Shown here piece by piece: positions 35,131 to 54,402 of a stretch of 64,000 nucleotides of DNA. A program made the translations under genes and the position numbers. The DNA comes from an uncultured Bacteroidales bacterium (lineage in GTDB: Bacteria; Bacteroidota; Bacteroidia; Bacteroidales; Muribaculaceae): the NCBI GenBank assembly GCA_949289215.1, contig CASENC010000024.1, positions 30,760 to 94,759 on the forward strand. Direction: 5' to 3'. The notes beneath the pieces are model-generated. The model did not search any database, had not been told where the DNA came from, and saw nothing but the letters and a program-made list of their open reading frames with translations. How positions within the stretch are numbered: the stretch's first letter is position 1; the number at the start of each line of letters is the position of its first letter.

Positions 35131-35961
35131 ATGACATTCAAGTGGATAGATAATTTATTCGACAAAAAAGAACGATTAGAAGAAGAACAACTTAAAGCCG
35201 AGTCGCAAACCGAAGACGGTAACATGGTGTTGCGTACCGAAGACTTGGTGAAAAAATATCGACAACGCACAGTTGTCAACCATGTGTCGATTAACGTGAA
35301 ACAAGGTGAAATAGTGGGATTGCTCGGGCCGAACGGTGCCGGGAAAACCACAACTTTCTACATGACGACCGGGCTTATTACTCCTAACGAAGGCCGGATT
35401 TTCCTTAACGACCACGACATCACAAAATACCCGGTTTACAAACGGGCAAAATACGGCATAGGATACCTGCCGCAGGAGCCGTCGGTATTCAGGAAACTGA
35501 GCGTGGAAAACAACATACGCACAGTGCTTGAAATGACCAACACCTCGGCCGAATACCAGCGAGAGAAACTTGAAAGCCTGTTGTCGGAATTCCGCATACA
35601 GAAGGTGAGAAAGAACCTTGGCGACCAGCTCTCGGGTGGTGAACGCCGCCGTTGCGAAATTGCCCGCTGCCTTGCAATCAACCCAAAGTTCATCATGCTC
35701 GACGAGCCGTTTGCCGGGGTTGACCCTATTGCAGTGGAAGATATACAATATATCGTGTATAAACTGAAGGAAAAGAACATAGGTATCCTCATCACCGACC
35801 ACAATGCGCCTGAAACACTCAGCATTACCGACCGTGCCTACCTGCTGTTTGAAGGCAAAATTTTATTCCAAGGCACAAGCGAGGAACTTGCCGAGAATCC
35901 CATCGTTAGGGAAAAATATTTGGGACGAAATTTTGTGTTCCGCCGCAAAAAATTCGATTAA
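35131..35961 (+). CDS. lptB: LPS export system ATP-binding protein (LptB-like)
   Basis: 276 aa. ATPase of the Lpt bridge that extracts lipopolysaccharide from the inner membrane. Walker [11 protein letters not shown]-loop [12 protein letters not shown], signature [14 protein letters not shown], Walker [14 protein letters not shown] and switch His in [18 protein letters not shown] at the C-terminus is LptB-like. The first 31 residues ([20 protein letters not shown] onward) form a charged extension before the ABC domain. A start at the ATG at 35224 would give a conventional length of about 245 aa, so the true start is open. The membrane partners are not in this window. Confidence 0.88.
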
Positions 35962-35994
35962 TCAATTTTTATTGTACAAGAAGCATATTTTTTC

Positions 35995-38445
35995 ATGGTA
36001 TATCCAAAGAATTTCGAGAGCAAAATCGACTTTGCCTCGGTAAGAAGTATGCTCGAAAGCAAGTGCCTCGGCCCACTTGGCATAAAATGCTGCCGGGCAA
36101 TGCGTTTTTCGAGTGATTTCGACACCGTCAAAAAATTACTGGAACAGACCAACGAATTTTTATCAATCATAACTTCGGGTAAGGAATTTCCTCTCAACGG
36201 ATACCACGACCTGACCGAACAGCTTAACTCAATCAAGGCACAAGGTGCTTACATGACAGCCGAGGAACTGTTCAACTTGCGCCGCTCGCTGCAAACCATA
36301 GCCGAAATATCGGCATTTTTCAACAACGCGACCGTCAACGATGCTCCTGCCTATCCACGGCTTGCCGCACTCACCGCTTCGATGTCCACATTCCCGCAAA
36401 TAGTGGCTCGCATCGACGGCATTATCGACAAATACGGCAACATCAAGGACAATGCTTCGCCCGAACTGCTTAACATTAAGCGCAACCTCGCATCGGCAAT
36501 GCAAAGCGTAAACTCGATAATGAAACGCATCATGTCGCAAGGCAAGGAGCAGGGTTATATCGATAGCGATGTGGCTCCCTCGATGCGCGACGGACGCCTT
36601 GTGATACCTGTAGCCCCGATGAACAAACGTAAAATTCGAGGCATAGTTCACGACGAGTCGGCCACGGGGAAAACCATCTTCATCGAACCGGAACAGATTG
36701 TCGAAGCCAACAACAATATCCGCGAGCTTGAAAATGAAATGCAGCGCGAAATAATACGCATTCTCACCGAGACTGCGACATTTATCCGCCCGCACATCGA
36801 CGACCTGCTCAATTCTTACTCCATAATGGGCATAATCGACTTCATCAGGGCCAAAGCCTTGTTTGCCAACGAGACGGGAGGTAATATGCCCGTCCTCGAA
36901 CGCAAGCCTCAAGTGGAATATTACCATGCCGTGCACCCTACCCTGCTGCTGTCGTTACGCTCACAAGGCAAGGAGGTGGTGCCGCTCAACATCAACCTTG
37001 ATTCGAAAAATCGCATCTTGCTGATTTCGGGCCCTAATGCCGGCGGGAAATCGGTGTGCCTGAAAACGGTGAGCATAGTACAATACATGACGCAATGCGG
37101 CCTGCTGCCGCCGGTTTACGACAATTCGCACATAGGGGTTTTCAAGAACCTGTTTATCGATATCGGCGACGAGCAATCGATTGAGAACGACCTTAGTACC
37201 TACAGCTCGCACCTTACCAACATGAAATTTTTCATGAACAACGGTGGCAGCGATACATTGGTACTAATTGACGAATTCGGAGGCGGAACCGAGCCGCAAA
37301 TTGGTGGCGCAATAGCCCAAGCCATACTGAAACGACTCAACGAGAAGCAGATTTTCGGTGTAATCACCACCCATTACCAAAATCTGAAACATTTTGCCGA
37401 AGACACCCCGGGACTGGTGAACGGTGCAATGCTTTACGACCGCCGAAATATGCGTCCGCTTTTCCAGTTGTCGATAGGCTATCCCGGCAGCTCTTTTGCC
37501 ATTGAAATAGCCCGCAACATAGGCCTGCCCGGCGAAGTGATAAAAGATGCCGAGGAGATAGTGGGCAGCGACTACATCAATATGGACAAATACTTGCTTG
37601 ATATTGCCCGCGACAAAAAATACTGGGAAAACAAGCGAACCGAGATACATAACCGCAACAAGCGGCTGCAACAACTCGAAGAGCAATATGAAAACGAAAT
37701 AGAACGCCTTGGCAACGAGCAACGCAACATCATAAAAGAAGCCCGCGAAGAAGCCCGGCAAATATTGTCGCAGAGCAATGCCACAATAGAGCGGACAATC
37801 CACGAGATACGCAAATCGCAAGCCGAAAAAGAGCAAACAAAAGAATTGCGCAAGCAACTCGACGAGTTTAAATCTCAACTCGAAAACGATGAAATACCGC
37901 TCACCGATTTGCGCCGAGGCAGTGCCATAAAACCGCGCAAGCCGAAACAGGCAAAACAAGCCACGCGAAAAGAAGAACCGTCGGAACCGGTCAAAGTGGG
38001 AGACTACGCAGCCATCGACGGCAACAACACTCCTTGCCGTGTACTTGAAATATCGGGTAATATGGCAACAATTGCTATGGGCAACTTCAGGTCGAGGGTG
38101 GCAATAAACCGCCTGCGCAAGGTAAATGCACCTCAAGCAGCATCGCAGCAGCACTCGATAAGCGTTACCATGAGCAACGACATTCGCCGCCGCCAACTCG
38201 ACTTCAAGCCCGACATCGACGTGCGCGGAATGCGTGCCGATGAAGCCATACAGGCCGTGACATATTTCATCGACGATGCCATTCAATTCAACGCCAAGCA
38301 AGTGCGAATACTGCACGGCACGGGAAACGGCATTCTGCGCCAGCGAATACGCGAATACCTCAACACCGTAGCCGGAGTAAAATCCTACCGCGACGAACAC
38401 GTGCAATTCGGCGGTGCAGGCATAACCGTGGTGGAATTGGAATAA
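35995..38445 (+). CDS. mutS2: MutS2-family ATPase/endonuclease with Smr domain
   Basis: 816 aa. Clamp/core domains about 1-310 contain RDGRLVIPV and GIVHDESATGKTIFIEP. The ATPase has Walker A GPNAGGKSV, Walker B TLVLIDEFGGGTEP and the TTHYQNLK motif. A long coiled coil (about 520-640) and KOW-like region lead to the C-terminal Smr nuclease domain with DVRGMRADEA and HGTGNGILR. MutS2 proteins suppress recombination or act on collided ribosomes, depending on species. It is the last gene after udk and lptB; 33 bp separate it from lptB. Confidence 0.93.
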   Translation: MVYPKNFESKIDFASVRSMLESKCLGPLGIKCCRAMRFSSDFDTVKKLLEQTNEFLSIITSGKEFPLNGYHDLTEQLNSIKAQGAYMTAEELFNLRRSLQTIAEISAFFNNATVNDAPAYPRLAALTASMSTFPQIVARIDGIIDKYGNIKDNASPELLNIKRNLASAMQSVNSIMKRIMSQGKEQGYIDSDVAPSMRDGRLVIPVAPMNKRKIRGIVHDESATGKTIFIEPEQIVEANNNIRELENEMQREIIRILTETATFIRPHIDDLLNSYSIMGIIDFIRAKALFANETGGNMPVLERKPQVEYYHAVHPTLLLSLRSQGKEVVPLNINLDSKNRILLISGPNAGGKSVCLKTVSIVQYMTQCGLLPPVYDNSHIGVFKNLFIDIGDEQSIENDLSTYSSHLTNMKFFMNNGGSDTLVLIDEFGGGTEPQIGGAIAQAILKRLNEKQIFGVITTHYQNLKHFAEDTPGLVNGAMLYDRRNMRPLFQLSIGYPGSSFAIEIARNIGLPGEVIKDAEEIVGSDYINMDKYLLDIARDKKYWENKRTEIHNRNKRLQQLEEQYENEIERLGNEQRNIIKEAREEARQILSQSNATIERTIHEIRKSQAEKEQTKELRKQLDEFKSQLENDEIPLTDLRRGSAIKPRKPKQAKQATRKEEPSEPVKVGDYAAIDGNNTPCRVLEISGNMATIAMGNFRSRVAINRLRKVNAPQAASQQHSISVTMSNDIRRRQLDFKPDIDVRGMRADEAIQAVTYFIDDAIQFNAKQVRILHGTGNGILRQRIREYLNTVAGVKSYRDEHVQFGGAGITVVELE

Positions 38446-52578: not shown

Positions 52579-53703
52579 GTGGAGTGCGAATTACTTAAAT
52601 ACCGCATGGCTTTGGCTTCGGTGCGGGGAATGGGCATAGAATTAGCCCAACGCCTGCTTGATGTGCTGCCCGATGAAGCCTCGTTTTTCTCAATTGACAG
52701 CAAGAATCTGGGACGGCTGTTGCAAACAAGCAACAAAATTATCGATGGCGACTACCGTCGCCAATTACTCAAAGCTGCCGAAGAAGAAATAAAATTTGTC
52801 AACGACAATGGCATATCGGTAACTTATTTCACCGAACCCGATTTTCCCGCACGGTTACTGAATGCCCCCGACGCACCTATATTATTATATAGCCGCGGAC
52901 GGTGCAACCTGAACCGCAGCAAAGTGGTCAGCATAGTCGGAACACGCCATGCCACACCTTACGGAACTCGATTTTGCGAAATGCTTGTTGCCGACCTTGC
53001 AAAACATTTCAAAAAAGACTTGATTGTGATTAGCGGGCTTGCCTATGGAATCGACATCGCGGCACACCGTGCAGCATTGCGCGAAGGGGTGACGACTGCA
53101 GCCGTCCTTGCGCACGGGCTCAACACCATATACCCTGCCATGCACCGCAGTACCGCAAACGAAATCATCAGCAGCGGCGGAGCATTACTGACCGACTACA
53201 CGTCGCACGACTACATCAGCCGAGCCAACTTCCTCGCCCGCAACCGCATAGTGGCAGCCCTTGCCGATTGCACGATAGTCGTGGAATCGGCCGAAAAAGG
53301 CGGAGCTATGGTGACTGCATCAATAGCCTCAAGCTACAACCGCGACGTATTTGCCTTGCCCGGACGATACACCGACCCGTATTCTGCCGGATGCAATCAT
53401 CTTATAAGCCGCAATATAGCTTCAATGCTTAACTCAAGCGAAGACCTCTTAAAGGCCATGCAATGGGAACATTCCGAAAACGACAAACCGTCGGGACGCC
53501 AACGAGAATTATTCCCCGAACTTTCAGCCGAAGAACAACAAATTCTCAATTATTTAAAACAGCAAGGAGAAAATATGGTACACATCAATGCTATCTATTC
53601 GGCACTGAAGATACCCATGTCGCAACTGTTGGGAATGCTTATCGACCTTGAATTTAAAGGGATAGTGACTCCAGCCCCGGGCAATAAGTATTCGGTGACA
53701 TGA
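52579..53703 (+). CDS. dprA: DNA-processing protein DprA
   Basis: About 374 aa if GTG at 52579 is the start (VECELLKYRMALASVRGMG); ATG at 52606 is a shorter choice, and upstream sequence is within the thioesterase gene. An N-terminal helix-hairpin-helix region (about 8-70) leads to the Rossmann fold with VSIVGTRHATPYG, ISGLAYGIDIAAH, SSGGALLTDY, RNRIVAALADCTIVVES and GNHLI-like GCNHLISR. A C-terminal winged helix (about 320-374) ends it. DprA loads RecA on incoming single-stranded DNA in transformation, though many non-competent bacteria keep it. Confidence 0.9.
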   Translation: MECELLKYRMALASVRGMGIELAQRLLDVLPDEASFFSIDSKNLGRLLQTSNKIIDGDYRRQLLKAAEEEIKFVNDNGISVTYFTEPDFPARLLNAPDAPILLYSRGRCNLNRSKVVSIVGTRHATPYGTRFCEMLVADLAKHFKKDLIVISGLAYGIDIAAHRAALREGVTTAAVLAHGLNTIYPAMHRSTANEIISSGGALLTDYTSHDYISRANFLARNRIVAALADCTIVVESAEKGGAMVTASIASSYNRDVFALPGRYTDPYSAGCNHLISRNIASMLNSSEDLLKAMQWEHSENDKPSGRQRELFPELSAEEQQILNYLKQQGENMVHINAIYSALKIPMSQLLGMLIDLEFKGIVTPAPGNKYSVT

Positions 53704-53751
53704 CAACCGGGCGCAATTGAAGAAATTTTTCATTATTTTCTATCTGAAATA

Positions 53752-53783
53752 TTTGGAAAATCAGAATATTCATATTACATTTG
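53752..53783 (+). promoter_or_regulatory. Promoter of the plus-strand candidate RNA
   Basis: TTTG (53752-53755), 20-nt spacer, TACATTTG (53776-53783): an exact match. It is 49 bp beyond the dprA stop, so it starts a separate transcript at about 53789. Confidence 0.6.
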
Positions 53784-53788
53784 CATTA

Positions 53789-54025
53789 CAAAGATGATAA
53801 ATACCACATCAAAGTAGATTGGGAAACTCATCAAATTTTAATGAAATGCCGAGACAATCTTCTTATTCCAATGGCGGGCCGCATTCCGCAAGGAATTGTC
53901 CTCCGGGGCACGGCGGATTACAAAGGAGGGAAGACCTCAAAACCTGATTATCGGAGTTTCATCGCATCCTTTGGTGTGGCTAATATACGGGAGCTGTTTG
54001 GCATCATGCCTTGCAGCTCCTTTTT
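53789..54025 (+). ncRNA. Candidate structured noncoding RNA downstream of dprA
   Basis: About 237 nt between a consensus promoter and a strong intrinsic terminator. Pairing seen by eye: GAAACTC (53823-53829) with GAGTTTC (53954-53960) closes a large domain. Inside it GACAAT (53853-53858) pairs with ATTGTC (53895-53900), TTCC with GGAA, and GCGG (53874-53877) with CCGC (53886-53889). The frame open through the terminator encodes an unconvincing 116-aa product; a 7-codon ORF (MINTTSK) begins near the 5' end. It does not look like RNase P RNA, SRP RNA or tmRNA. Family unknown. Confidence 0.45.
53990..54025 (+). terminator. Terminator of the plus-strand candidate RNA
   Basis: GGAGCTG (53990-53996) and CAGCTCC (54014-54020) with an inner GGCA/TGCC helix, followed by TTTTTC. 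Confidence 0.85.
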
Positions 54026-54059
54026 CTATATCTTATGTGTGGCACTTATCGATAGTATT

Positions 54060-54202
54060 GAAATAAAAAATAAATCCTCGGCATCACTGCCCAGGATCGC
54101 TTTAAATAACCTTCTAATACCATTAACATAAACCTAAAAACAGAAGTGATTGTCTCACGACACTCATCTTTAGTTTGCCTTAAAACTAATACCATGAATA
54201 AC
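54060..54202 (-). ncRNA. Candidate minus-strand small RNA, convergent with the previous one
   Basis: About 140 nt from a TAACTTTG box to an intrinsic terminator on the minus strand. It contains TGTC-GTGA-GACA, a GNRA-capped hairpin (54151-54162), and ATGGTATTAG twice. A 49-codon reading frame (starts MVLVLRQTKDEC) spans it and continues past the terminator stem, which argues against coding, although a small peptide cannot be excluded. It faces the plus-strand candidate RNA tail to tail. Confidence 0.4.
54074..54097 (-). terminator. Terminator of the minus-strand small RNA
   Basis: Minus strand ATCCT, G, GGCA, GTGA tetraloop, TGCC, G, AGGAT, then TTATTTTTTATTT. Confidence 0.8.
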
Positions 54203-54207
54203 TGATG

Positions 54208-54215
54208 CAAAGTTA
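54208..54215 (-). promoter_or_regulatory. -7 box of the minus-strand small RNA
   Basis: TAACTTTG on the minus strand; TATG (54235-54238) lies 19 nt upstream in place of TTTG. Confidence 0.45.
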
Positions 54216-54373
54216 AGCACAATATGCTATATAACATAATTTCTAAGCAAGAAAAATCACTCGGGTAATATTATTTAACAATACATCATTACGACAGCTA
54301 TTGTTTTAACATTTATATCATATTTCTCCATAATAAATTCAGCGAATATATACAGGCTTACGCAATTTATTCG

Positions 54374-54381
54374 TAAGTTTG
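54374..54381 (+). promoter_or_regulatory. -7 box of the mgtC-like operon
   Basis: TAAGTTTG, 22 nt before the ATG at 54403; -33 element weak. The 150-bp AT-rich stretch upstream (54240-54373) holds nothing else I can identify. Confidence 0.45.
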
Positions 54382-54402
54382 CAAGTTGAAAAATGATTTG
54401 AG

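Follow-up and report, generated by a model that had tools for sequence, protein, structure and literature searches.

6S RNA is a small RNA thought to restrain RNA polymerase once growth stops, and members of its general Rfam family (6S RNA, SsrS; RF00013) comprise a closing stem, a central bubble and a terminal stem, with the predicted template on the bubble's 5′ side. Two further Rfam families are considered here: 6S-Flavo (RF01685) and Bacteroidales-1 (RF01693), the latter carrying the Rfam description "6S-Bacteroidales RNA suggested". The Bacteroidales-1 motif has been in print since 2010, where the parts of the paper cited here give it a row in Table 1 and a place in the legend of Figure 5 (PMC2864571). 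For Bacteroides thetaiotaomicron, the cited passages report a Bacteroides 6S RNA together with two classes of pRNA, all detected by dRNA-seq (PMC7366714), and we infer that this 6S RNA is the RF01693 RNA. 6S RNA is also named among the known RNAs detected in a flavobacterium, in the section cited (PMC9723704).

We analysed a 64,000-nucleotide stretch of DNA (the window) from an uncultured Bacteroidales bacterium of the Muribaculaceae, in which an earlier note, made from the letters alone, had singled out an orphan structured RNA unit between dprA and mgtC and proposed an undescribed Bacteroidales noncoding RNA. The RNA between these genes is an already described one, Rfam Bacteroidales-1: in a search with covariance models it matched RF01693 over the full length of the model (1-179 of 179) at 115.1 bits against a curated cut-off of 60, and this was the sole Rfam match over its curated cut-off in the searched stretch. 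The proposal holds in that the locus encodes a Bacteroidales noncoding RNA that is structured and independent, but neither "orphan" nor "undescribed" survives the comparison with Rfam, since the RNA belongs to a known family whose motif was published in 2010; the covariance-model search that had been suggested as a check spoke against novelty. RNase P RNA, SRP RNA and tmRNA, which the RNA had been said not to resemble, indeed gave no Rfam match at 53752-54025. The general 6S model RF00013 left the window without a match at E ≤ 1, so the RNA was not filed under that family, and no match to RF01685 was found in the window's genome at E ≤ 0.001. A model of our own, R1, was made from the 68 RF01693-found sequences of alignment A1 (see below); its second, weak match in the window (35932-36042, minus strand, E 0.076) was taken as chance. 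Coordinates of all features are collected in Table 1.

Table 1. Features of the 6S locus and of the convergent sRNA gene (window positions)
Feature	Position	Strand	Basis or remark
Promoter of 6S gene	53752-53783	+	-33 box TTTG 53752-53755, 20-nt spacer, -7 box TACATTTG 53776-53783
Predicted primary transcript of 6S gene	53789-54025	+	Start inferred from -7 box
Bacteroidales-1 / probable Bacteroidales 6S RNA	53802-53987	+	RF01693 115.1 bits; R1 181.7 bits (R1 training set includes this RNA)
Closing helix P1, 5′ strand	53804-53813	+	Covariation in 68 sequences
Helix P2, 5′ strand (GAAACTC)	53823-53829	+	Likely pRNA template, running into single-stranded ATCA
Terminal stem and apical hairpin (P3/P4)	53864-53930	+	Inner part also paired in Rfam structure line
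Helix P2, 3′ strand (GAGTTTC)	53954-53960	+	98.9% of cells paired
Closing helix P1, 3′ strand	53970-53979	+	Covariation in 68 sequences
Intrinsic terminator of 6S gene	53989-54025	+	Stem-loop 53989-54021, then T run to 54025; fold and sequence
GibS/FopS-like sRNA gene	54206-54062	-	Convergent with 6S gene, outside the 6S RNA
-7 box of sRNA gene, TAACTTTG	54215-54208	-	
Imperfect palindrome TTATGTTATATAGCATA	54239-54223	-	Upstream of sRNA

The gap that holds the RNA measures 699 bp and is bounded at its 5′ end by dprA (PF02481, DprA_WH) and at its 3′ end by mgtC (PF02308), which lies on the same strand as the RNA. The consensus promoter described earlier was confirmed as one of the Bacteroidetes type, TTTG-20-TACATTTG: the box TAnnTTTG was present in all eight congeners whose upstream stretches were inspected, and TTTG stood at equal spacing in seven of them, the stretch of the eighth (L035) beginning too far in to reveal it. 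The strong terminator was recovered as well, as a stem-loop interrupted by an internal loop and followed by a T run. A simple promoter and terminator scan, with a promoter pattern of the sigma-70 type, detected neither element of the gene, and a tandem-repeat search of 53700-54402 was empty. With mgtC as the next gene on the same strand, the RNA could be imagined as an mgtC leader or riboswitch acting in cis, but the terminator and then a convergent sRNA gene come before mgtC, which moreover is found beside the RNA in just one of the eight other congeners (L034; the L035 locus stops 235 nt past the RNA) and was not seen in the flanks of 67 loci of other genera, while the RNA itself occurs in 138 of the 149 genomes of the host's family. 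This reading was rejected on the comparison of neighbourhoods across congeners and other genera, and we regard it as extremely unlikely. dprA was upstream of the RNA in seven of the eight other congeners, and neither dprA nor mgtC was beside it in the 67 loci of other genera, 11 of which were viewed with 6-kb flanks and the rest with at most 1.5 kb. Such a changing neighbourhood, with dprA in congeners and not in other genera, is expected for a gene that acts in trans. One congener, L033, has the RNA and lacks dprA within 6 kb, the other seven having the RNA next to dprA.

That some 237 nt here contain no convincing protein also stood up. A 116-aa ORF (53781-54131) might be taken for a short coding gene, as its frame is open across the 186-nt match in the window and in six of the eight other congeners, yet 43 of the 68 rows of the alignment, two congeners among them, carry in-frame stops, the ORF has no Pfam match, and the compensatory changes fit helices; given the stops and the missing Pfam match we rejected a coding gene, which has almost no probability in our estimate. 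Folding of 53789-54025 gave -77 kcal/mol (z = -3.29, equalled by one of 200 shuffles), and folding without the terminator (53802-53981, 180 nt) gave z = -2.32, equalled by two of 200.

Covariation was read from A1, an alignment of 68 sequences (the window, eight congeners, 42 others of the family and 17 from other families of the order) that excludes L069, whose contig ends inside the RNA, and the sub-cut-off loci L071-L077. The long-range helix GAAACTC/GAGTTTC described in the earlier note (P2) forms in the fold predicted for 53789-54025, and beyond it lies an additional helix that had not been listed, P1, which encloses the RNA as its outermost helix. In P1, both-side changes occurred at nine of its 10 bp, and 96.5% of 661 cells were paired, where the structure was derived from A1 itself, so that this and the other percentages of paired cells are biased in its favour and the counts of compensated pairs less so. 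None of 500 shuffles was as good, and when the partner strand was slid, 27.5-57.4% of cells were paired. Five of the seven P2 pairs were invariant in the 68 sequences; near-invariance of this kind is expected of a pRNA template, which P2 probably contains, and gives little covariation evidence. The terminal stem, separated from P2 by the central bubble, had both-side changes at 11 of 12 pairs and about 91% of cells paired, with two pairs unpaired in 20 and 21 of the 68 sequences. Across the whole 29-pair structure 21 pairs were compensated, so the structured RNA came through the proposed check for compensatory changes among aligned homologues. Covariation support comes from P1 and the terminal stem, not from P2, and it is through compensatory change in these two elements that the 6S architecture (closing stem of P1 and P2, central bubble, terminal stem) is kept. 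The window RNA thus matches Bacteroidales-1 from end to end but differs from its Rfam structure line, which pairs the inner part only and leaves unpaired both the covariation-supported P1 and the P2 that is near-invariant in this alignment.

R1 was then run on 40 loci and matched the expected place in 39, the sole miss being L092, an RF00013 locus; two additional matches had E 0.43 and 0.63. The loci matched were all 14 6S-Flavo loci of the order (each below the 6S-Flavo cut-off), all 15 6S-Flavo loci of the phylum (nine over that cut-off), all three RF01693 loci of the phylum sample and all seven sub-cut-off RF01693 loci of the order. As one of the 14 order loci, L087, is the same place as training sequence L066, the independent 6S-Flavo loci, outside the training set, number 28, and all 28 were matched in place at E 2.9e-11 to 0.013. 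RF01693 and RF01685 matches were co-located in all five genomes matched by both models at E ≤ 0.001 (G188, G226, G277, G318 and G360). A second alignment, A2, brought together 38 divergent sequences fitted to R1, leaving out L082 (E 0.013), L092 (no R1 match) and the duplicates L085, L087 and L127 (of L075, L066 and L116), and adding L131, L134 and L138 from the R1 scan of the order. P1 was compensated at 10 of 10 pairs in this alignment, which is itself fitted to R1, and the six inner pairs AAACUC/GAGUUU showed the commonest pair in 214 of 228 cells, the other 14 being one-sided changes to G-U. The terminal stem was looser, one pair failing in 26 of the 38 sequences and another in 18. Of 500 shuffles, 37 reached the number of compensated pairs and none reached any of the other four measures.

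Because R1 finds 28 of 28 independent loci and the matches of the two Rfam models are co-located in five of five genomes, the sequences point to Bacteroidales-1 and 6S-Flavo being a single homologous RNA. They have in common the closing stem and the near-invariant AAACUC/GAGUUU, but they are distinct Rfam families, and the RF01693 and RF01685 models mostly detect different genomes. With the general 6S RNA the window RNA shares the closing stem, the central bubble, the terminal stem and a predicted template on the 5′ side of the bubble; it differs in going unmatched by RF00013, and its presumed partner would be the Bacteroidetes primary sigma factor. We conclude that the unit is very probably the 6S RNA gene of this Muribaculaceae bacterium. 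Weighing against this are the missing RF00013 match, the looser terminal stem of the divergent sequences and the 70 of 119 order genomes (below) in which RF01693, RF01685 and R1 all found nothing. Bacteroidales-1 could instead be a housekeeping structured RNA of another function, resembling 6S RNA only in its rod-with-bubble outline, and it would suit such an RNA that RF00013 fails to detect Bacteroidales-1 and that the wording of Rfam is limited to a suggestion of 6S; the homology to 6S-Flavo and the pRNAs reported for B. thetaiotaomicron in the cited passages (PMC7366714) argue against it, however, and we consider it improbable.

The 138 RF01693 matches in the host's family were one to a genome and all over the cut-off, and among near-complete genomes of the family (at least 90% complete, at most 5% contaminated) 109 of 110 were matched. 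Across a sample of 119 genomes of the order, RF01693 matched 27 (20 over the cut-off), RF01685 matched 14 (none over the cut-off) and R1 matched 38, 19 of which are R1's own training genomes; compared with RF01693 on the same genomes, R1 shared 26, added 12 and lost one (G253). At least one of the three models matched 49 of the 119 genomes. The remaining 70 matched none of the three under strict filters, because of which loss and divergence are indistinguishable in these scans; one of the 70 has an RF00013 match. This is the only RF00013 match among the 119 (G199 C182:939-1115, locus L092), and it may be contamination; the assembly is 85% complete and comprises some 520 contigs. Across a phylum sample of 198 genomes, RF01693 matched four, of which the only one over the cut-off was the window's own genome, and RF01685 matched 21, 15 of them given loci.

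The sRNA gene on the minus strand consists of two tandem seed-bearing units, each with AUGGUAUUAG, and has its own promoter and terminator. By sequence resemblance it is FopS/GibS-like, under all three Rfam thresholds: its units scored 42.9 and 27.0 bits with FopS (RF04319, cut-off 56), and the sRNA scored 25.5 bits with GibS over the full length 1-142 (RF04182, cut-off 115) and 20.4 bits with BTnc231 (cut-off 80.4). Unit 1 has a hairpin of its own followed by U-rich sequence, so that short and long sRNA products are possible. The 6S gene and the convergent sRNA also stand side by side in congener L034. Two more double-unit copies were found in the window's genome (C8:68102-67955 and C7:7303-7158; loci L097 and L106), and the 3′ halves are nearly identical in all copies, the C7 copy differing in its 5′ half. 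Three copies of the window's genome and one of G044 went into a model, R2, which scored over 100 bits at least once in each of the nine genus genomes examined; these include the window's own, and seven of them had given no training copy. In the host's family R2 matched 114 of 149 genomes, where weak matches are indistinguishable from single FopS units and were not counted as the double sRNA; FopS itself was over the cut-off in 141 of the 149. According to the cited part of the FopS study, FopS is conserved within Bacteroidaceae and FopS sRNAs repress SusC-like transporters (PMC11697453), and the range of FopS in the host's family reaches past the Bacteroidaceae named there. Just ahead of their -7 box, several FopS/GibS-like genes (the one in the window and those at L093, L097 and L106) have a palindrome of the type TATGTT-TATAACATA, which may be an operator or correspond to the published promoter motif 2.

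From 6S biology, the Bacteroidales-1 RNA would mimic an open promoter, occupying the primary-sigma holoenzyme of RNA polymerase as growth slows, and would leave the polymerase once a short pRNA had been copied from it. The likely template is the near-invariant AAACUC with the adjoining AUCA (53824-53833), at the central bubble's 5′ side. A candidate pRNA whose first letters would be roughly 5′-(U)GAUGAGUUUC would include GAGUUUC. As this sequence is identical to the 3′ strand of P2, the pRNA could take the place of that strand and thereby open the closing stem.

The finding is settled as a described RNA, and the tentative 6S label in Rfam gains support. The analysis adds the covariation-backed closing stem P1, which the current Rfam structure line omits; its by-products are firmer backing for assigning the RNA to 6S and, on the opposite strand, the convergent GibS/FopS-like sRNA. 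A joint Bacteroidales-1 and 6S-Flavo model might annotate 6S RNA in more Bacteroidales genomes. As a tentative proposal, to which we give somewhat less than even weight, all Bacteroidota 6S RNAs may derive from one RNA whose template AAACUC, with its partner GAGUUU, was frozen phylum-wide through being tuned to the unusual -33/-7 geometry of promoters read by the Bacteroidetes primary sigma factor. If so, the division into two Rfam families and the apparent absence of the RNA from many Bacteroidales families would reflect limits of detection.
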